From the NCBI GenBank assembly GCA_950295325.1, contig OX485806.1, positions 31,064,001 to 31,128,000 of the forward strand: 64,000 nucleotides of DNA. Direction: 5' to 3'. Under the pieces are notes generated by a model that made no database searches, was not told where the DNA came from, and saw nothing but the letters and a program-made list of their open reading frames with translations. Positions 616 to 57,480 of the stretch are shown in pieces. Origin of the DNA: Polytrichum commune. Its lineage: Eukaryota; Streptophyta; Polytrichopsida; Polytrichales; Polytrichaceae. The number at the start of each line of letters is the position of its first letter. The first letter of the stretch is position 1. Both the position numbers and the translations under genes were made by a program.

Positions 616-3600
616 GTGCGCCTTGCAGGGGGAATATTCATGGGAATATGCTCTCTAATACTCTTTGTGGAGAGGTCCCCACCTCTCTATCACGCTTATC
701 TTGGATTATCCGTGTTCTTTTGGACGGAGATTTTGTCAAACATGACCCTTTTGAGGAGCATTGCAAGTGCAGTCCAATCAGCAAAAGTCTCCCAACTACT
801 TGAGGTTACCTTTACAATGGCCATCTCCTTCCTTGTCTTGGAGGTTCTGGTAAGCTTTTCTATCATGGTTCAGCAGCATTGATCTTGTCTTGCAAGTGAT
901 TACTTTTGTAATATTTATGTAGAGGTATTATGTTTACTTGACGGGCATAAATGATCAGTTAAGAAATCCTCAATGTTGCACAACTACCTGCAATAATCTA
1001 TGAGCAGTAGGCTTACTGAACACTTTGCACAAAGATGACGACCTTAGGTCCATTATAAAGATATGGTACCATATTGTATGTTCTTGGTTTTGAAAATAGA
1101 CATATAGAAAGAAAACTTGAGGTAATCTCCAAGTAGCTGCCATTCTAGTAGATTAGAGCTATTCCTTACTAAAGCTTTGTGTTATGAGGGTCTGTCACAT
1201 GCTACACATACATCTTATGTAGTGTGGCCGACGCTCTTCGGCATCGACCCATGTAAATGATCTTGTGATTATTGGGTTGCAACTAACGAAGTTTGCATTG
1301 AACACTTCCTGCTACACATGAGGTCATAGCGGCCACTCTAATCAGCATGGCACATAAATTTCAATGCCACACTAAATCAGATATATAGTGTAGTAATTTT
1401 CTATCCTCTTGCCTTTATTACCGAATGTCAAATCTATTTCACAATCTTCAAGTTAGGCAACTGATGAATATTTCTAAATGACATATACTACTAGCTTTAT
1501 CATCTTACACTTCCTGCTGAATAGGTTGCATGGATTCTGATTGGCAGGTTGGTAGTTTTTTCCAGCGGGAAGTCTACACAGGAATTTTCCTGGTTGCTGG
1601 AGTTGTTGGCACAGTCGTTGTATTTCGTAAGACCAAAAATTTGTATATGATGACCATGTTCGTGTGGGGCTCCTGCTGGTTTTTATCGGCCTTCACACTC
1701 ATGCCAACACAAATTTTAGACAATACTGCTATTGTGTAAGGCTCTGCCCAACTCACCTTTGTATAATTTGGAATTAATATGGTTTTCCCCTTCATACCTG
1801 ATTATCTCAAAACAATACTTAACGCTGTTGAAGCTTTGAAAAGAGACATGCAATTATGGAACTTGGATTTATTATTCCAGTATTTGGGCATTCACATATA
1901 TGTTGCTCTTAATCTCAAGTGAAGGCTCAGTAATCAATACTTGAGTGTGAGTTTTTATCGGGGTTCACACTCATCCAAACACAAATTCTAGACCATGTAT
2001 TTCTTGTGTCAGGCTTTGATGAAATTTCTCCTGTTCAGTATGGAACTCTATACGATGGTTCTCCCTCTAGACATCTATATCTCAAAACACCACTCAACAC
2101 TGTTGAAGCTTTAAAAGGGATAGGCAATCATATTATGGGACTTGGAAATATTACTCTGGTACTTGGGCATTCACATGTATCTCAGTATTAATGTCAACTG
2201 AAGGATTAGTAATGAAAATTTCAGTTTGTGTTTTGTCACTGATGGTGGATTTGTTACCAGGGTGGGGAGTGGAATGGTGGTGATTTTTGTTTCTACATCT
2301 GCTTGGTGGCTCTATTCAATACCCTCTTCTGACCCAGCCAGGAAATTGAAATCCTCGGGTGGTCTCTGCAATGCGAACTACTCGTCTCTTTTGTTCTTTG
2401 CTCAGGTTGCACTTCAAACTTTTTATATCATAGTGGCATTGGCATGCTTTTCAGTTAACTGCTGAATAAGTAGCTGTAAAAGGCCATAGCTTCATTGATG
2501 GAATTAAAGGAGAGAATTTTTGTAGTGCCAAGATGCCACCACAAATGGTCTCACTTGTTCACAATCATGATCATGATCCAACATTTTAATCATATGAGAT
2601 TTAAAGAACCTAAACCCTAAACTGGCTCTGGTACAAATTTCTCTTTTTATGTGTTTTGCCAGTGATCCATATTTGTATGTGAATATTTACTCACTAGTTT
2701 TCTGCATTGTTGAGCAGGTGCTACTGGTTTTGGGAGCATCAGGCATGGTATGGGTCACAACATCATACAGGGAACAGAAGAAAGGCCTTCCTCTCCTCCA
2801 TCAAATCACTAACTGGTCACTGGCTGTGGTGGCCATTCTACTCCCTTTAAAATCACCTCACGAAATGCTCGCACGATTAAACTCGATATTCCTCGGCTTT
2901 GCCCCACTTTTCCTCCTCCTGTCGATTGGGTACGTGATTTATCAATTTGGACTTTGAGAGTGTTTATTTAGATCATTTTTACAGGTGTCTAAAGCATGGG
3001 TATATTTTATTGAAGGAATATGGTCTACCCACCTACTGTTTGTGCAAGTGGAGGTCACAAAGTCACAAGGCCTCAAGGTCACAAAGAGAATAACAATTGT
3101 GTATGTGACACCACAATGATTTGATCATCATGCATAACATTTAGCCTGACCATTTCAATGGTACTAAATACTTTCTGCATGGAATTGGCCTTGGGTTTGC
3201 ATGTTATATACTGATGCTTGTGTGCATGTTCTTACAGGTACGAGGCCCTGTTTTACACTGCTTTGGCCTTGGTACTTCTTTCATGGATAGTTGTAGAATC
3301 TGTAGTTAGTCACACCATTTCACCAAGCTTAACACTTGTATCTAAAAAGTCCAATTCATTGTATATGGTTGAGCCCTCTAGCATGAGACTCCCCAAGGTT
3401 GCACTTCACAGTGTTGAGCTTCAGCATACAAGGGTTGGACTTTGTTTTGTAAGTTATTTCCCCTCAGACCTTTTCTTTCTAGTGATGTTGAATGATAAAT
3501 TTCCTCGTGTTTATGAAATAATCGGGATGTGCAATGCTCATTGTGGTAGGTCTACATGAAGCACTGAACAATTCTATGGTTTTGGCAGCTTGTATTGATC

Positions 3601-4925
3601 AATGTTGCATTTTTTGGAACCGGAAACATGGCCAGTGTGGCTAGCTTTGAAATCTCGTCAGTGTATCGATTCATCACTATATTCAATGTGAGTTAAATAT
3701 CCACTTACATCTTTTTTTGGTTCTATCATAGTGAATGTCTAACCTTGAGAATGAAGCTGATTTTCTTTCTTGTGAGATGGTTTAACTGAAGTTTGTGGTA
3801 TAACATTGTGATTTGCAGCCTTACATTATGGGATCACTCTTGCTCTGCAAGATATTTGTCCCCTTCATTCTTGTCACGTATGTCCTCATTCCTAACCTAT
3901 GCTTTGCTAAAGTATCTAATACTATAGGGTTGCCAAAGCTTCAGATATTTATCATGTCGCCTGTAAATGGCATGGAAAGTTGTGATGGGCACAAAGTCCT
4001 ATATTTACAAACAGTCACAGTAATCACTACAGAAATCCTGCCTTTGCTCTGGGTCCAGGGGTATTTTTTTTTTAAGTTCAGTGGGACAGTTTGAATATTA
4101 TCTGTAGGGTACATCTTTCAACATGGTTGCATAGTATTGTTGATAGCATTTAGTCTTGACCTTAGAAACCCCAAAAGTAAAGTCGGCTATATGGAGGCTA
4201 GACAATATGGTCTTCATGACAATTCATTTTTCAAGAGTCACTTATATTAACCCGGGGGTGGAAAGCTGTGATATGCAGGTGTGCATTTAGTGCTGTTACA
4301 AGGTTATTAGAGCTCCCAAGGCTAGGCTGTTACTTCATTGTCCTTTTGCTCTCTGATGTCATGACCATTCACTTCTTTTTTCTTGTAAGTTCCAAGCATC
4401 CAGGCTCTTCTTGTGTTTTCTTGGGAGAATTTGTATCAAGAAGCCACACTAAACATCTGACTTAGAGTGACATCAAAATCGGTGTGTCATGTTAATTAGA
4501 GTGGTCTCACGGCTTGTCATATACCAGGGAGTCTCAATAAGACACCCTCTCTAGTTGCCACCCTGTGATTGCAAGACAATTAGTGCGGGCTGATGATAAA
4601 TAGGGTGGGCCACATTAAATCAGATCTAGTCTCAGGTGGTTTTCCTGAGCCTTACCTTCCAAATCTTTACATGCCCCATTTTTATATTCATCCCTTATAT
4701 TACTGACAATGCAAAACGTTGGGCTTGCAGGTAAAAAACTCTGGAAGCTGGATGGACATTGGACAGAGCATTAGCCACTTTGGCATCATGAGCGCCCAAG
4801 TAGTGTTTGTGTTGCTTCTTTTTGCTCTGTCTAGTGTATTTACGCAGGGTTTTGACCTCACGGCACACCAAGGACATTCCATTGCCTCATTCCTGCAACC
4901 CACTTCTAATTCAAAAATTCAATAA
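616..4925 (+). CDS. PIGN: GPI ethanolamine phosphate transferase 1, C-terminal half (nine exons)
   Basis: PIGN adds ethanolamine phosphate to the first mannose of the GPI-anchor precursor in the ER membrane. Exons I see are 616-849, 1548-1735, 2261-2405, 2718-2929, 3238-3448, 3589-3687, 3819-3877, 4279-4384 and 4731-4925. All have AG acceptors and GT donors. Intron phases agree at every junction, giving 482 codons and a TAA stop. Family landmarks in order are ERSPPLYHAY, a run of hydrophobic membrane segments, GLPLLHQITNWSLA, NVAFFGTGN, SFEISSVYRFITIF, SDVMTIHFFFL and DIGQSISHFGIM. These belong to the multi-spanning PigN domain; the catalytic sulfatase-like half is off the left edge. The donor after exon 3 (gttgca) is weak. 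The last ~20 residues after VFTQGFDL do not resemble a conserved family end. Identification is firm; exon ends are inferred by eye. Confidence 0.93.
1679..2229 (+). repeat. Tandem duplication inside PIGN (exon end plus intron)
   Basis: Positions 1679-1950 are repeated, diverged, at 1951-2229. Both copies start with gtttttatcgg and share ttcacactcat, acacaaatt, tgttgaagcttt and cttgggcattcacat. The first copy holds the last 57 bases of the second PIGN exon with its GTAAGG donor. In the second copy the donor has become tgtgtcagg, so it lies silent inside the intron. Confidence 0.85.
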
Positions 4926-13125: not shown

Positions 13126-13511
13126 TTTTTTTTTGAAAGTAGAAGAGATGAGTAGATAGATAGAAACATCAGCCTTGATTGGAGACAAACATGAATGAAG
13201 AGTCACTTCGCCTATGGGCTATTGCCACCTTTCAGTGGTGGACTCTATGTAATGGACCAGGTCAAACGTAGTTGGTAACTTCCCCGGCCAGGGACGAGAG
13301 GGAGATTTGGGCGAACCAACCTGCACACTCGTTCCTTGTTGGATGCCTAAACCCTCGCCTCCAAGGAACCAGTGTACGGGTTAGTTTGCCCCAGCATGAG
13401 AGGGGTAGGCGTATAATAGGAGAAGCACTTATAGGGAAGTTGGAGGACTTGGTTTCAACTTTGCATTTGTTAAAAACGACAGCAGAAAGGGAGCAAATGG
13501 TGGTGGTGTAT

Positions 13512-13826
13512 AAGGTAGAGGGGCCCTTTCCCGCTCGGATTTCAGATTGGCATGTTCATTGGGGAGTTATTAAGGGGAAATCAATCTTGGAAGATGTGCA
13601 AAGTACATTGGAAATTGGACCAATTGGAATAATTAATTTTGGATTAATATTGAATTAGATATGAATTTTGGAAGGAGAACTCATAGGGGTACCCAAAACC
13701 ACTCACCCCAAAAATGTACACCATGATTACATAGAAATTTGAGGTTGGAAGCTATAATGTACCTCTTGTTTGGATAGCTCTAGTGAGCGGTTTAAGGACC
13801 TGAGCGGGAAAGGGCCCCTCTACCTT
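13512..13826. repeat. Perfect 25-bp inverted repeat around ~265 bp
   Basis: The arms at 13512-13536 and 13802-13826 are exact reverse complements, beginning aaggtagaggggccc and ending gggcccctctacctt. The left arm lies inside the open frame 13272-13658. Perfect arms in diverged surroundings suggest a recent small inverted-repeat element or a local inverted copy. No clear target duplication flanks them. Confidence 0.8.
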
Positions 13827-14030: not shown

Positions 14031-14315
14031 CAGCCTCCATTATACCTACTAGAAGAACCGATTATGGGACCAAGTCGTTACCCGCCGGCTTGGTGAATGT
14101 TGTCATTCAACAAGTATATAATTTGGATTCATTAGCCTCATCAACCCCAACAATATTTCTCGAGTCGTCCTTGGAAATACGAGTCTCATGTGACTTGTTT
14201 TTCCATAATATGTTTTTTCCACGCGCATTGCAACAACACTACCTTTGGGTGATGTACTCTATTAACGCAAACTGGAGATCATGCACTTGGACATGCCCAT
14301 AGCGACAAAGGCATC

Positions 14316-15430
14316 TTACACGATGCACTTTGTAAGGGTTTTGAGGGTGGAAGTGTGAACTCCTCCTCGTTGGCCATCAGTTAGGACAATGAGTTGTTGA
14401 ATTTGCCAACTGCGAGTGGCGATGGTGGTAATGAGTGGGGTATATTTGTCAACTTCCCTTTGTGTTGATGTTTTTGGGAAACTGTTGTGGCGGTGTGTGA
14501 ATTCGATGTAGTGGAGTTTGATGTTGGTAGTGGGTTGGTTGGGAAAAGAATTGTGGGTTTGGATGCCTTCTATGAGAATATTGTCTAATCGGAAGCCATA
14601 TTGGCAGAACCAATCGGGAGAAAGGCATATACTTGGGAGTAGTAGGGGAGTAGCCAACGCGGGATGGTGTTGTTGTTGTGGGTAGTAGAGAAAGATTTAC
14701 CAAGAGGAGAGTAAGAGTTGTTGAATGTGTTCCAGACCCTTGTTATGCATGTCCGTGTGCAAGCCCTTGAGGATAGAGTGGGTGCGATTTGCAAGAACAT
14801 GGGGCCATGTGTCGAGGTAGGAGCCTTTGGCGTGCCTCCGGGGGGCATAGTGAGTAGAATGGGGAAGGGAATTTTTTGGGCCAAAAAAGGTGTTTGTGAT
14901 AGCTGCCCATGTATTGAGAATTATAGTATTTGGAATGGTGGAGGTGCTCCAAAAGGTGTTGGAGAGGTTGTGGTCTAGTGAAGTGTTATTTGTCCATTTA
15001 TGAAGGGATGGATGGTGGGGGTTGACTTCTTGGGCGAGGTGTTTGTAAAAGTGGGGAAGTTATGTGTCAAGATTTTGGATGGGGCCTTTCTAGAAGTTTT
15101 ACCATGTTAGTACCGAGAGTAAAATTGGCAAATGTGAATGGCGTTGCTGTTGGGGGTGTTAAGGGGAGCCTTGGCACCAAACTTGACGAGATTGTTGGCC
15201 ACGTCATTGCCTTGGATGCCTATCTATAATTAGGCTTTGATGATATGTATCGGGAGGGGATGAAATTGTATTTGTATGAGGATGTTGTGTTGAAGAAATT
15301 TGTCGAGGTGGTGTCTGTGGGTTGCGGGGGAGTGTTTGTAATTCCTTAGGAGACATATTGAGACAAGGTTGTCAATGCAGATATAGGTTGTGAGGTAGAA
15401 GTAGAAGAGTGTATAATAGATTAAATGCAC
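14316..15430 (-). pseudogene. Decayed LINE 3' half: RNase H, zinc motif, restriction-like endonuclease (copy A)
   Basis: Read leftward from 15430, the first part resembles RNase H: ICIDNLVSI...HRHHLDKF...IKA, two stops, then GIQGNDVANNLVKFGAKAP, matching the HxGIxGNxxADxLxKxGA end of that domain. Then follow YMGSYHKHLFWP (about 14890), a CxxC remnant, DTWPHVLANRTH in a shifted frame, and the endonuclease core LHYIEFTHRHNSFP and KYTPLITTIATRSWQI (about 14510-14400). The order and many residues match the open copy at 44532-45425. There are several frameshifts and stops, and one zinc-ligand Cys has become Arg, so it is dead. The reverse transcriptase domain is not seen. This is the only copy here with a clear RNase H segment. 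Confidence 0.8.
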
Positions 15431-23433: not shown

Positions 23434-24346
23434 ATGGTAAATGGGAGGAAGAAGCAAGCGCCCAGGGTTGCGGAGGAAGGAGGTCCTGTGCGACCTGGTG
23501 TCAAAGGCAAGAATTTCTGCAAGGATGAGGAGGAGCAGCTTTGTAGAAGTGTCTTGCATGTGACACAAGATCGCATTGTTGGTAATCAACAAAGAGCAGG
23601 TGTTTTTTGGGAGCGGATCACCACTCACTACCAAGAGACCAGCCACAGGGACCTCGGCCGCAATGCTCATTGGAGACGAAGTGGGGCATCATCAAACATG
23701 ACGTCTCCAAGTTCATTGGTGTGTACTCACAGGTGATGCGGTTGAATCGAAGTGGGACGAGCGCTTCAGATACCTTGAGGAGGGCGCATGAATTGTACAA
23801 GCAGAAGAACGAAAAGGGATCGGATTTCGCATTCGAACACTGCTGGGTATTGCTGCGAGACCACCCGAAGTGGTCGGAGGGGTGGACACAGGTGAAGGTT
23901 GTGATGCCGAAGAGGAAAGCGCCTTGCTCAGAGGAGGACAGTGACTGCTTCAATTTGTCCGAGATGGAGCGGGGCGTAGCAACAGCTTCGGAGGAGGGGG
24001 GCGGATCAGCGGAGGGAGGGAGTGTGCGTGCAGAAGCATCGCAGATATTCAAGGGGCGCCCTGGAGGTGTCAAGGCTGCAAAGGAGGATGTGCGACAAGG
24101 GAAGATCCATGAGGGTCTTTTGTTGGCACACGCGGAGGCCACGAAAAGCATGGCTGCGGCACACATGAGGAAGGCTGCGATTCTGGAGGACCAGAATCTC
24201 CTCATGCTAATGTCCATGCCTGATGTTGATGAGGACGCCAAGGAATACCTGCGCCTCCGAAGACAAGTGGAGTTGAAGAAGCTCCGCAAGCTTGTGGCTG
24301 AGGAGGAGGGCCGAGATGCGGAGGCCAATGCTGTCAAGAATCCACA
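23434..24346 (+). pseudogene. Harbinger accessory protein, Myb-like / NAM-associated type, frameshifted
   Basis: In PIF/Harbinger elements the second protein (Myb/SANT-like) binds DNA and helps import the transposase. From ATG 23434 the frame gives GKNFCKDEEEQLCRSVLHV...GVFWERITTHYQE...DLGRNA, a trihelix/SANT-like start. It then shifts near 23660 into SLETKWGIIKHDVSKFIGVY, FAFEHCWVLLRDHPKW and a long charged, helix-rich tail ending in YLRLRRQVELKKLRKLV. This matches plant proteins often annotated as NAM-associated or 'glutathione S-transferase T3-like'. The single frame change, and a (TG)n run that overruns the C-terminus, argue that it is inactive. A one-base sequencing error is the alternative. 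Confidence 0.85.
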
Positions 24347-24402
24347 TGTGTGTGTGTGTGTGTGTGTGCGCCCACTCTGATTCTATTTTACTTGAAACCC
24401 AG

Positions 24403-44439: not shown

Positions 44440-45425
44440 AACAACTGTTCATTTTCGAAGGGTGGCCCGACATAAAAGGGGTATAATGTTGGCAAAAGTC
44501 TTGACATTATACCCCATGGTGTAGCAGCCTAATGTTGAGTAATATTGACATCACACCAAGAATACACATAGCCCGCACTACCCCATATTGGCTAGCAAGT
44601 TGTCCAACCGGCACACACGACGGAGCAATCCGTAACCTCCGCACATTCATAACAAAAACACATGAAAGCCAAGAATCCGCATCAGCCAACCAAAAATACC
44701 TATACGTCAACAAATGGCTATCATACGAACAAATAAACCAAAAACTGTCAAACCACTTCTGGAAAAGCAAGCAGGTTCCCGACACACAAATTACCCAAAC
44801 CCTCAAATTTAGATATGCACAATACATGGGCAACCATAGGAAACATATATTTTGGCCTCTCCAATACCCAAATCCTAATTGTACACTATGCCAAAGAAAT
44901 GACAGAGACACATGGCCCCATCTACTCTCAACATGTGAACACCCTTATTTAAAAGGGCTCAGAATCTCAAGACATAACAAAGCCGTCCACCTAATCACAC
45001 AAACACTACAAGCCAACAAAAATACCCAATTCTTTACATTGGCAAATGGGGGTAACCTCAACAACCAACCGCCAGACAACACAGTACCCGAATGGCTCCT
45101 AGCATGCACATGCCCGCATACGACATGCCACTGCCAAGCCAAACTAAGACCTGACATAATGTGCATTATAGGAGCCCACAACCAAACATCAACACCGATG
45201 CTACCCTCCCCTAAACACACAATCCAATTCATCGAATTTACATATTGTCATGACAGATTTCCTGAAGAAGCACTCACCCACAAACACACCAAATATGACC
45301 CACTCATCAACACTATACAAAACAACGGATGGAAAGTCAACCCCCTAATCACCATCACAGCCGGAGTAAGGGCATCGCCAGTGGATCTAGGTAAAGCTCA
45401 CTGCAAACCAAAACCTATCTTTTGA
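44440..45425 (+). CDS. LINE 3' coding region, open, with zinc motif and restriction-like endonuclease (copy B)
   Basis: A single open frame of 297 codons runs from 44532 to 45425 with no start of its own; it is the 5'-truncated end of a LINE protein. Residues 117-135 form CTLC...H...C (Cys117, Cys120, His130, Cys135), the CCHC motif preceding the endonuclease in R2-like LINEs. Residues 192-201 form a second cluster CTCPHTTCHC. Then RPD (206-208), IEFTYCHDRF with Glu235, KYDPLI (254-259), GWKVNPLITI and AGVRA (277-281) give the PD-(D/E)xK restriction-like endonuclease pattern. Just upstream, in another frame (about 44440-44510), HFRRVARHKRGI and LAKVLTLYP could be the end of an RNase H domain. 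The intact frame suggests a fairly young copy. No tail or target duplication was identified. Confidence 0.82.
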
Positions 45426-53991: not shown

Positions 53992-55361
53992 GACAGAGTT
54001 CACACACGAGACTGAGGGCCCGTGACCATTGCACTTCAATCATTCTTGTTGGTGGAAAAGGTGGAGACCGTCTACAAGAAGAAAAAAGAAGAAAAACTTC
54101 GGTCTCCGGAGGAGACCGACGTGAATTAAGTGTTTGTTCGATCTACCCCCAATCCAATGCCCACATGACAAAGGTATGGAAGTATAGATCTACTCCTCCC
54201 TTTCGAGAGTAGACACTATAGTCACCAGTCATCGGTAACAAGACCTAGAATGGTTAGTATTTAAGTATTTTTAATATGAGTTTGGTCATCCGGTCTCTAG
54301 TGCATTGTTAGTGGATGGAGTGGAGTGGCTTAGTTGTTAAGGTTTTATGGCTTTATCTATGGGGGGTCTAGTGTTTGGGGTAGCGGTTGGTGGTTTTCTA
54401 TTCTTCTTTTGTGGAGGAGGATAGACATGGCATATTTTATAGCGATAGTATTGATGTTTTTAAAGGTATTTTTAATTGTAGGCATAGGTATTTTAAATTT
54501 ATTTTCGAGTGATTTCATTGATGGAATGTGTGTAGTGGCTCTGGCGCCTGCAGTGATTATAATAAGGGGGTCGACTTTCCATCCTCTAGCAGCAATACTA
54601 TTTATTAATGGTCTATATTTGCTATTTTTTGCTTCGAGTGTTTCTGGTGAAAATCTATCATTACAGTATGTGAATTCAATGAATTGTATGGTGAGGTTGG
54701 GGTCTATGTCTGTGGGGGGGGTCATTTTGGTATGGTAATCCTCTAACACACATGATGTCAGGTCTAAATCTGGAGTTACAATGGCATCTTTGTGTACCGC
54801 ATGTGCAAGGGAGTAGCCAATTGGGAACGGTGTTTTCTTGGGGTGTGTTATTGAAGGTGCCAGCATTCATGAGAATATAACATCGAGATTTTTCGGATGA
54901 GATTAGTAGTTTCCTAATTTCCCATACTGCTTTGTTCACCGTCTAAGTTCACTTCACACTACGATTGAGAGACCAACAGACTAAGTGAATGCAAGATGGA
55001 TGTAAAACCTATATGGATTCCTACATGGCATCAAATGGGTCATGTTTCATGATCACTTGGATTATGTTCAAAATCCACCTCTTAGAGGTAGGCCTATCAC
55101 AAAACCAAGAGACCATGGCACTCTTAAATCTCCCAACTATTGATCTATTATATTTTATCATGTGTAAGGACCCCGAATGAATGAAAATTCATTGAAATAG
55201 CGTTTGGTTGAAGGTCTGGTCACATGTGATTTCACACTACACTCGAGGGCCCGTGACCACACCACATGAATTTGGAAGTGTCTCGGGACGGCCTTTGGTC
55301 ACTTCTTTTGGGCTCTCACAATTTCGTGGTCACGGCTCTCAACTCATGTACGAAGTGGCCC
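53992..55361. mobile_element. Harbinger-type MITE, copy B, interrupted by a LINE
   Basis: The left part 53992-54074 (cacacgagactgagggcccg...ggtggagaccgtcta) and the right part 54946-55361 (...cgaagtggccc) together match copy A (6393-6879) in inverse orientation. TAA lies left (53989-53991) and TAC right (55362-55364). The outermost 9 bases at the left have changed. Removing the LINE at 54075-54937 with one target duplication rejoins ggagaccgtcta to agttcactt, matching ggagccggtccaagtttgctt of copy A. Confidence 0.85.
54075..54937 (-). mobile_element. 5'-truncated LINE insertion with 8-bp target duplication (copy C)
   Basis: ACCGTCTA lies on both sides (54067-54074 and 54938-54945). Coding runs leftward from 54937: NKAVWEIRKLL, NWLLPCTC with TQRCHC, FRPDIMCVRG, then after a one-base shift IQFIEFTYCNDRF, KYRPLI, GWKVDPLIIITAGARATTH, ending near 54357. 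These are the same endonuclease landmarks as copy B, with RPD and Glu in place. The shift falls at an eight-base homopolymer (54714-54721), so the frame may be truly open. The 3' untranslated part (54356-54075) ends in a T/C-rich tract in the sense direction rather than poly-A. Near it is an 8-bp perfect stem with a 3-base loop (54100-54118). This is the best-defined copy. Confidence 0.88.
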
Positions 55362-55929: not shown

Positions 55930-56437
55930 ATTGTCTTCCTTTCAGAAGGTGGACTATGTGGTTAGGTGTAGATCATGGGTTGCTAGTTCCATAGTATCTT
56001 GGCTTCTTAATTCGAGGTTGTCGTTTTTTGTCACAACGGAGGGGTTATGGAGTTTTATTTGCACTCAAGTTTTTCCATTTGTTTGGTATGAGGTATGTGA
56101 GGTATTAGATGACGTTTTGGTGTATGTGTTTCATCAAGCTCTTTATGTTACTTTTTGGGATGTTGAGGTCTTTGAGTTATGACATTGGGCACTCATGCGT
56201 GGTGCCTCTGACTCATGTGATGATGGTTATGAGGGGATTTACTTCCCATCCTTTATTCTTTAGCGAGTCTATGAATAGGTTGTAGTGTTTTTCTCCAATG
56301 CATTTTCGGAATATCGGTTGTGGTAGTATGTAAATTCTAGGAGTTGTAGGGCTATTGTGGGTGCATGATTTTCTGGGTAGTTGGCTATGGCTTGCGGTGC
56401 CTATTACGCATGGGATATCCGGTCTAAATTTACTTAG
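55930..56437 (-). pseudogene. LINE endonuclease fragment (copy D)
   Basis: Reading leftward from 56437: RQCLSKFRPDIPCVIG, a diverged centre (IYILPQPIF where IEFTYC stands in other copies), YNLFIDSLKNKGWEVNPLIT, then a stop and VRGTTHECPM, similar to ARATTHIPSM of copy C, and LKDLNIPKSNIK-like sequence. The key Glu region is lost and there are stops, so it is inactive. It belongs to the copy C subfamily and is cut off exactly where a + strand LINE end begins. Confidence 0.7.
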
Positions 56438-56590
56438 GCATTGGCGGTGGGGGCTAGAGCTCATGCCATTTGGGTGGGCCCCAACCGGCTGAGCCATGAC
56501 CCCATAAATGGGGAAGGGGGAGTCAGGGCCAGGGCTCGCCATCTAGCACCCCATGAAGTCCCACATAATAATAATAATAATAATAATACC
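56438..56590 (+). mobile_element. LINE 3' end with (AAT)n tail (fragment E)
   Basis: It reads VGARAHAIWVGPN, then a conserved non-coding block (gagccatgacccc, ggggaaggggg) ending gaagtcccac and a tail of about eight AAT/ATA units (56565-56588). The same block, inverted, is at 57110-57240 with an (AAAAT)n tail, showing that this is a shared LINE 3' end with a short-repeat tail. It abuts copy D 5' end to 5' end. Confidence 0.65.
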
Positions 56591-57107
56591 CGACTGCCAA
56601 CTGTTGCCTGTCCCACCCGATTCAATAAGAAAAGAAAAGAAAAGACAAAAAAGGAAAAAGGAAACCAACCAAAAAAAACAAAACAAAAACGCCTTTGCAT
56701 TCTCGAAGGTCGCTTGTCCACAAATCCCATATTGAGTGCACTTCATCTTCACCTTGAAGGCCCAAAATTCAATATATATGTTCACTTCCCCTTAATAAAT
56801 AAGCAATTGACTGGGGTTTCATTCCCAAGTTCAAAATGAAAGCATGTAAATGAATGTCAATAAAGCATGTAATGAACTTGGAAGATCCTCATTAGCATTT
56901 TATAAAGTATGTACCTTACCATTCGAAAGGGTCTTTTGTTATTCCAAAATGAAACTTATGTTTGTGTGTTATTTGTAGTTTTTTATTTTATGATATTTTA
57001 GTTAATGCCTTCTACTTTCACAAGCATTCATACATATTCAAACTCATTAAGTTGTTATTTTGGGGAATCGGGCAAGGCGGGCAATAGTTGTTTGTTAAGA
57101 TCAATAT

Positions 57108-57480
57108 TTTATTTTATTTTTGGCGGGACTACCTGGGGGTGATGGATCATGGGCCCAGCCTTGACACCCCTTTCCCCCAATGATGAGGTCATGGCTCGGC
57201 CAGTTGGGGCCTGCTCGAATGGCATGAGCTCTAATCCCAACCAACAATGGCATGGGGGATTTTGGCATGTACAAGGGAATAACCATTATGGTAATATTGA
57301 GTTTGGGGGGTAGGTCATTAAGGGTGCCAACATTGGCTTGGGTTTATTTGCATGGAGGGTTTGAACTATTTGGTGTGATGCTTTGTTGTACTATTTGGTG
57401 TTGAGAATTAGTTGGTTTGAAACCATCTTGAAGTACTTTCAGTCCCACTAACCTTCTTGACTTCCCAGACTTTAAAATCA
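57108..57480 (-). pseudogene. LINE 3' fragment with (AAAAT)n-type tail (fragment F)
   Basis: Reading leftward: NVGTLNDLPPK (matching NAGTFNNTPQ of copy C, about 57335), then VGIRAHAIRAGPNWPSHD (about 57230-57180) and a non-coding end ctaggtagtcccgcca-like, followed by aaataaaataaaat. The endonuclease core between these parts is missing, so it is an internally deleted copy. It links fragment E to the endonuclease-bearing LINEs. Confidence 0.6.

Follow-up and report, generated by a model that had tools for sequence, protein, structure and literature searches.

To our knowledge LINEs (non-LTR retrotransposons) of the R2 type carry neither an AP-type endonuclease (APE) nor an RNase H, and plant L1 elements carry an APE but no restriction-like endonuclease (RLE). 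The Dualen element of Chlamydomonas, described by Kojima and Fujiwara in 2005, is reported to possess a cysteine protease. As far as the accessible parts of the cited papers go, Dualen/RandI elements unite APE and RLE in one element (PMC4640811, PMC3636483) and also possess an RNase H, with no cysteine protease in the definition given, and their position has been read to mean that APE elements arose through replacement of an RLE by an APE (PMC4640811). They are described for Chlamydomonas and its relatives (PMC8226300, PMC3747384), the RandI 3' tails of algae being short repeats without poly(A) (PMC3747384); LINE/Dualen is also annotated in cryptophytes (PMC12747079), and RandI/Dualen is a listed Repbase clade (PMC5753468), again judging by partial texts. 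In the available portion of a study of Physcomitrium elements LINE-1 and LINE-2 are mentioned, but neither Dualen nor RandI (PMC7466625), and among the literature matches listed, with Repbase and the original Dualen description outside that scope, there was no report of a land-plant Dualen/RandI.

Here we analysed a window of 64,000 nucleotides together with the genome that contains it. We consider it very probable that the locus derives from a LINE of the dual-endonuclease type with a Dualen/RandI-like architecture, a reading that includes the mechanism proposed below and that is made with no activity shown and nothing outside this genome compared. The window holds remnant A and three more remnants of this LINE group, B, C and D, as follows.

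15119..15412, minus strand: remnant A, 3' half of the RNase H, about amino acids 1966-2056 of the ORF2 of locus L002 and a little more, with internal stops and in a frame that differs from that of the RLE
14265..15086, minus strand: remnant A, CCHC region and RLE (by tblastn), zinc Cys and RPD decayed, from an old divergent family
44547..45377, plus strand: remnant B, family 1, starting just past the RNase H and spanning CCHC and RLE, truncated at both ends
54075..54937, minus strand: remnant C, family 2, 5'-truncated with a complete 3' end
54936-54360, minus strand: remnant C, C-terminus of the RLE with one frameshift, then the 3' UTR
about 54120-54099, minus strand: remnant C, terminal hairpin, then a T/C-rich repeat tail to 54075
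54938..54945, minus strand: remnant C, 5' copy of the target-site duplication, TAGACGGT
54067..54074, minus strand: remnant C, 3' copy of the target-site duplication, TAGACGGT
56042..57390, minus strand: remnant D, a further family, RLE pieces 57390-57229 and 56458-56042

Remnant B is 94.6% identical in amino acids to the family-1 copy L001 and retains the zinc residues and the PD and E of the RLE, and remnant D is 35-46% identical to family 1. The 8-nt TAGACGGT directly flanks remnant C on both sides and occurs three times in the window when both strands are counted. A structure model built for the RLE pieces of the window itself (alignment A5) was uninformative, with a mean pLDDT of 36. Elsewhere in the window there is an ORF at 23586-24380, which presumably resembles plant Harbinger-associated or NAM-associated proteins.

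The first-pass annotation had claimed that an RNase H segment stands ahead of the zinc motif and RLE on the minus strand in remnant A, and this was borne out by tblastn against the window, in which amino acids 1966-2056 of the L002 ORF2 match 15385-15119 (35% identity) and amino acids 2067-2350 match 15086-14265 (30% identity), both on the minus strand and with a joint E of 5.6e-34 (the 15412 boundary is set by the L007 match and not by L002). The best single match reaches 106 bits, whereas 17 of 500 shuffled versions of the region matched at all, with a maximum of 26.9 bits. The order RNase H, CCHC, RLE and its spacing are the same as in better-preserved copies, and because the two pieces are collinear with those copies and score far above the shuffles we take them to be one element. 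That remnant A has the same zinc motif and endonuclease as remnant B, as was also claimed, holds for the homology of the region and not for its state, since zinc motif and RPD have decayed: most zinc cysteines are lost and RPD has become RLD. In the RNase H the Asp of 'ICIDNLVSI' is the only one of five catalytic residues still visible, 'KA*L*I' stands at the His site, the final Asp has become Asn, and the part with the first Asp and the Glu is missing. The RLE part is 27-31% identical to families 1 and 2 (33% in a single short match), its relatives in a genome search do not exceed 62% identity, and 13 of the 16 next-best genomic places have internal stops, with open frames of at most 226 amino acids. 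Judged by its letters alone, with frameshifts, stops and decayed catalytic and zinc residues, remnant A is therefore a dead copy of an old family, outside both families that have long open copies. Such decay, with RNase H and RLE lying in different frames, is what could also be expected if the RNase H piece came from a different element adjoining an R2-like remnant, which the annotation had itself named as a possible refuter; however, order, orientation and spacing match copies with both domains in one open frame, and since those relatives carry RNase H and RLE in a single frame we regard this explanation as refuted, with next to no chance of being correct. On the 3' side of remnant A, at 13511-13826, a segment around AAGGTAGAGGGGCCCTTTCCCGCTC occurs in inverted copies (13826-13801 and 13536-13511), which may be a small inverted-repeat element.

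The genome (407.8 Mb, 64 contigs) contains four LEAFY matches (PF01698), three of them near 100 bits or more, from which we infer that the host is a streptophyte. With the remnant B protein as query 129 scored places matched, with 6,388 candidates. Eleven loci (L001-L011) were picked for long frames, with 5' flanks added for some, so that they stand for the better-preserved copies and are no unbiased sample. Their longest frames range from 1,699 to 2,924 amino acids, and in six (L001, L002, L007, L009, L010 and L011; 2,372-2,924 amino acids) a 2A-like motif, APE, RNase H and RLE share one frame. The long frames of L003 and L004 hold all but the 2A-like motif; that of L005 begins within the APE, that of L008 begins past it, L006 stops ahead of the RLE, and the RT of L001 has lost the stretch after YADD. 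For at least 16 of the 24 best RLE places in the genome an RNase H match lies immediately upstream in the same orientation; the remaining eight include remnant B, whose RNase H is cut off. Near full-length copies measure 11,859 (E2), 11,870 (E6) and 11,829 bp (E5) in family 1, where they are 98.6-99.4% identical, and 13,320 (E9) and 13,315 bp (E10) in family 2, where they are 99.7% identical; these lengths were set by the similarity of near-identical copies, and the 5' ends are uncertain by about 20 nt. On this basis the group comprises a minimum of two families that retain long open copies (about 11.8-11.9 kb and about 13.3 kb) together with older decayed families, and such near-identical copies argue for recent activity. 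Profile scans A1 and A2 of viral contigs for relatives outside the genome gave 46 and 64 pattern matches, none of them confirmed, and nothing in an Rfam scan of 13 loci reached the gathering threshold. Of the 12 RLE places closest to remnant B (at least 91% identity, with remnant B itself counted) 11 are in plus orientation on their contigs, and the next 12 divide into six and six; this excess could be fortuitous or result from the way candidates were chosen.

The order in ORF2 is 2A-like motif, APE, RT, a weak chromo-like segment, the PCIF1-like domain, RNase H, CCHC and RLE, and in L001, L002 and L007 Pfam places APE, RVT_1, PCIF1_WW (PF12237) and RNase_H in that order in one open frame. The APE is matched by PF14529 (E 1.1e-7) and PF03372 (E 2.2e-6) in L001, by PF14529 (E 9.7e-8) and, below the Pfam cut-off, PF03372 (E 2.8e-4) in L002, and by PF03372 (E 1.3e-5) in L007; profiles against the PDB found exonuclease III for the APE (E 3e-4) and RNase H1 for the RNase H (E 2.3e-13). 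Invariant in the alignments are APE N9/E38/Y130/D165/N167/D224/D249/H250 (6/6 rows), RNase H D11/E58/D83/H132/D142 (8/8 rows), and zinc C118/C121/H131/C136 with RLE P208 D209, E236, K252 and K255 (9/9 rows including remnant B), and we take the APE, RNase H and RLE positions to be catalytic residues. The rows come from six of the eleven loci for APE, eight for RNase H and PCIF1, eight plus remnant B for CCHC/RLE, and seven for RT; L005, L006 and L010 were omitted throughout as near-duplicates or broken, L008 from the APE rows (its APE lies outside its frame), L001 from the RT rows because of the deletion, and L004 from the APE rows through a miss of the motif pattern, its APE motifs being present. 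The chromo-like segment rests on PF00385, found in five of eight rows at E<=10 with a best E of 0.0038 and 17.5 bits, under the cut-off of 25.1. No Pfam match covers the RLE region, and CCHC/RLE profile A1 met R2 in the PDB at E 0.6 only, at the zinc and RHNK block, so that the identification as an RLE is provisional and rests on motif order. A Pfam protease at E<=1 was found neither in three ORF2s nor in four ORF1 stretches, although a diverged protease could escape such a scan.

Dual endonucleases had been made to depend on an N-terminal AP-type endonuclease in fuller copies, and PF14529/PF03372 in L001, L002 and L007 supply it. A proposed check of the RNase H catalytic residues is met by the invariant D-E-D-H-D in 8/8 rows, and in the fuller copies, examined separately and not as a consensus, the RNase H stands in one frame with CCHC and RLE. 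Of the two outcomes that were to refute the annotation, neither occurred. The suggested Dualen/RandI-like pairing is thus supported as an architecture (APE, RT, RNase H and RLE), without implying a place in the Dualen clade of an RT tree. As for a dual-endonuclease LINE in a land plant, both endonucleases do lie in one frame, but the host evidence from LEAFY reaches streptophyte only. In substance the first-pass annotation is correct, and it claims less than the data bear out; new beyond it are the PCIF1-like domain, the 2A-like motif, a large ORF1 that overlaps ORF2, a 3' end that is structured and has no poly(A), and a length of 11.8-13.3 kb.

Selection was estimated as dN/dS in nine pairs among eight loci, most of them saturated or nearly so at dS. 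In the sole unsaturated pair, L009-L011 (dS 0.38-0.67), dN/dS is 0.07 for the APE, 0.05 for the RT, 0.09 for the PCIF1-like domain, 0.05 for the RNase H, 0.09 for the RLE and 0.22 for the stretch past PCIF1, and because these values are low we infer that both endonucleases and the PCIF1-like domain are kept by selection.

The PCIF1-like domain is matched by PF12237 at E<=0.01 in 8/8 rows (best 1.1e-13, 51.5 bits against a cut-off of 31.1), while in the whole-ORF2 scan the matches in L001 and L002 stay below the Pfam cut-off. In the genome 150/150 scored places, of 697 candidates, lie above the cut-off, host PCIF1 exons not being separated out, and there was no PF12237 in 14 control genomes, those named being prokaryotes. 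At E<=1 the domain finds only PCIF1 in the PDB (6irv, E 6e-4; 6irx, E 0.0038; with the profile 6irx, E 0.011). The alignment spans the catalytic region, where the catalytic NPPF lies opposite HPPN in L007, and that motif is intact in none of the eight rows and degraded in all of them. This degradation leads us to favour a role without methylation: methyl transfer is presumably lost or changed, and binding of RNA or of the cap would be the likelier function, an inference for which there are no binding or activity data. It remains possible, if improbable, that the domain is an active methyltransferase with an altered motif that acts on the element's own RNA or cDNA. The PF12237/PCIF1 match does extend through the catalytic region, and dN/dS in the domain is 0.07-0.13 in six of the nine pairs and 0.22 in one (two were not computable, and most dS values are near or above 1), which would suit an active enzyme; the change to HPPN in L007 and the lack of NPPF in every row do not. 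Among the literature matches listed, which leave Repbase and the original Dualen description out of scope, no LINE with a PCIF1 domain was found.

Upstream of the APE all eleven loci carry GD[IV]xxNPGP, which in seven lies within the longest frame. According to the available part of PMC12846837 the 2A core is (D/G/C/N)(V/I)ExNPGP; five of the eleven (L001, L004, L007, L008 and L011) have it exactly, the other six carrying K, Q or H for E. Across all six reading frames of the eleven loci there is one stray NPGP elsewhere. The same source reports, as far as its accessible text goes, that plant viruses have not been found to use 2A naturally (PMC12846837), and for that reason natural 2A-like motifs in a plant element would deserve attention. 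L002, L005, L006 and L008 have a tandem 2A-like region with two motifs, about 290 bp and 71% identical in L002/L005/L006; there is a stop ahead of the first motif in L002, and in L008 the second motif, at the homologous position, is NPGS and the upstream one intact. The long ORF1 contains a conserved domain that shares 58-76% identity with the first of four rows and for which there was no Pfam match at E<=1 in four stretches and a best PDB match of E 0.27. The ORF2 ATG lies within the last 8 nt of ORF1 (ATGNNTAG), and this overlap is found in six of seven copies (E1, E2, E3, E6, E9 and E10); E5 has the same overlap letters, but its ORF1 frame is broken ahead of them. From that ATG ORF2 is open past the RT in E6 and E9, two of the seven, the others breaking earlier. 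In E11 (L020 joined with L011) a 747-amino-acid ORF1 at 1845-4085, upstream of the family-2 copy L011, looks at first sight unlike the ORF1 of E9, with the shared motifs WLGF, NVQCLN and SLDG; an exchange of ORF1 between families is possible.

At the 3' end the family-1 UTR folds far better than shuffles in four of four copies (z -7.95, -6.92, -6.65 and -8.87), and among four sequences 8/38 consensus pairs are changed on both sides and 5/38 are broken or gapped in one of the four. Family 2 folds more weakly (z -2.24 and -3.66), yet has a strong terminal hairpin. The tails consist of (TTTTC)n-like or (ATCT)n/(TTC)n repeats, without poly(A). Repeats past the 3' boundary of L006 were considered as part of the element and rejected as a flanking tandem repeat beyond the tail. 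In the family-2 3' UTR of L007 and L008 there are stretches TAGCTCAG..GG and, on the opposite strand, GGTTCGATTC, which by eye we take to resemble a tRNA A box and B box, respectively; an ARAGORN tRNA scan of seven loci found no tRNA-like pieces in the 3' UTR. Target-site duplications are visible at E10 (11 nt, its end lying 7 nt short of the similarity-based 5' boundary) and E6 (about 10 nt, within a tandem repeat), and none is clear at E2, E5 and E9, three of the five full-length insertions. By eye there is no common target site at the 3' ends of 11 loci or at both ends of the five full-length copies; because the flanks differ between copies, no fixed target is seen.

The RT profile has as its three best PDB matches the R2 chains 9nl2 (128.9 bits, E 1.7e-36), 9nl3 (115.8 bits) and 9dou (115.3 bits), with 8gh6, which we take to be Bombyx R2, at 82.7 bits and human LINE-1 ORF2 (8uw3) at 79.9 bits. 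Since Bombyx R2 is barely above human L1, the term 'R2-like RT' leans on the three other R2 chains, and we read the similarity as leaning to R2 and as no proof of membership in the Dualen clade. These R2 matches suit a different history, in which a plant-lineage LINE of the RLE type (R2 group) gained APE and RNase H independently, by convergence and without kinship to algal Dualen, as do the failure to find a cysteine protease in three ORF2s and four ORF1 stretches and the presence of ORF1, PCIF1-like domain and 2A-like motif, none of which is known to us from the description of Dualen. We hold that history to be unlikely, without dismissing it. The view that an RLE was replaced by an APE, as given in the accessible part of PMC4640811, allows an R2-like RT as well, and the short-repeat 3' tails resemble those of algal RandI in what is available of PMC3747384. 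The dual-endonuclease LINEs may also not be novel, as RandI/Dualen families of bryophytes, which may even share the additional domains, could already be known in Repbase or the literature. We think this somewhat doubtful, though it cannot be set aside: RandI/Dualen is a Repbase clade (PMC5753468) and LINE/Dualen annotation extends to cryptophytes (PMC12747079), at least in the parts of these sources at hand, but the literature matches listed hold neither a land-plant Dualen/RandI nor a LINE with a PCIF1 domain.

For a dual-endonuclease LINE we propose the following mechanism. ORF2 would be translated by reinitiation at the ORF1/ORF2 overlap, and at the 2A-like motif the ribosome would release an N-terminal peptide, so that the replicase begins at the motif's Pro. 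The RT would recognise the 3' hairpin and prime at the nick (target-primed reverse transcription), the first nick being made by one endonuclease, most likely the APE, and the second strand being cut by the RLE, whose counterpart in R2 likewise attacks that strand. The RNase H would remove the RNA, CCHC and linker would position the DNA, and the PCIF1-like domain would most likely bind the element's own RNA at its capped 5' end without methylating it. At present we can only speculate that giant dual-endonuclease LINEs (12-13 kb) of a plant lineage acquired a PCIF1-type cap methyltransferase domain and converted it to cap binding, by which the replicase stays attached to the 5' end of the mRNA that encodes it, with 2A-like skipping freeing the replicase from the N-terminal peptide, both RNA ends being held (the cap by the PCIF1-like domain, the hairpin by the RT), and the APE cutting first and the RLE second.

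How LINEs passed from restriction-like to AP-type endonucleases is a question on which dual-endonuclease elements can throw light. This plant-type genome has many copies, some of them almost identical over 12-13 kb, so that the respective tasks of APE and RLE can be tested in a host that is not an alga. For LINEs, a PCIF1-like domain would represent a novel type of module, one that hints at how an element may recognise its own capped RNA. Similar to the cap m6Am methyltransferase PCIF1/CAPAM it matches PF12237 through the core, but here the domain lies within a LINE polyprotein and its NPPF is degraded. SymbioLINE-Dnmt and DIRS likewise join a retrotransposon to a methyltransferase domain, which according to the available part of the source is a cytosine DNMT or Dam-like enzyme (PMC5890265), whereas here it is of the PCIF1 type. 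In oomycete Utopia families the RNase H is upstream of the RT, and here it is downstream. APE, RT and RNase H are shared with plant L1, from which these elements differ by the presence of an RLE, an invariant RNase H His and the lack of a poly(A) tail; the plant L1 RNase H is reported to be archaeal-like with Arg for His, which the accessible text of PMC4640811 cites with reservations. R2 provides the best RT matches among solved structures and, similar to the elements here, has CCHC and RLE (by motif) after the RT, but our elements have in addition an APE and an RNase H, and their five full-length copies sit at unrelated flanks. Compared with Dualen/RandI, the host here is a streptophyte, no cysteine protease was found, and there are a PCIF1-like domain, a 2A-like motif and a large ORF1, for which the status of algal Dualen was not compared; what the two have in common is APE and RLE with RT and RNase H in one element, and a short-repeat 3' tail without poly(A).
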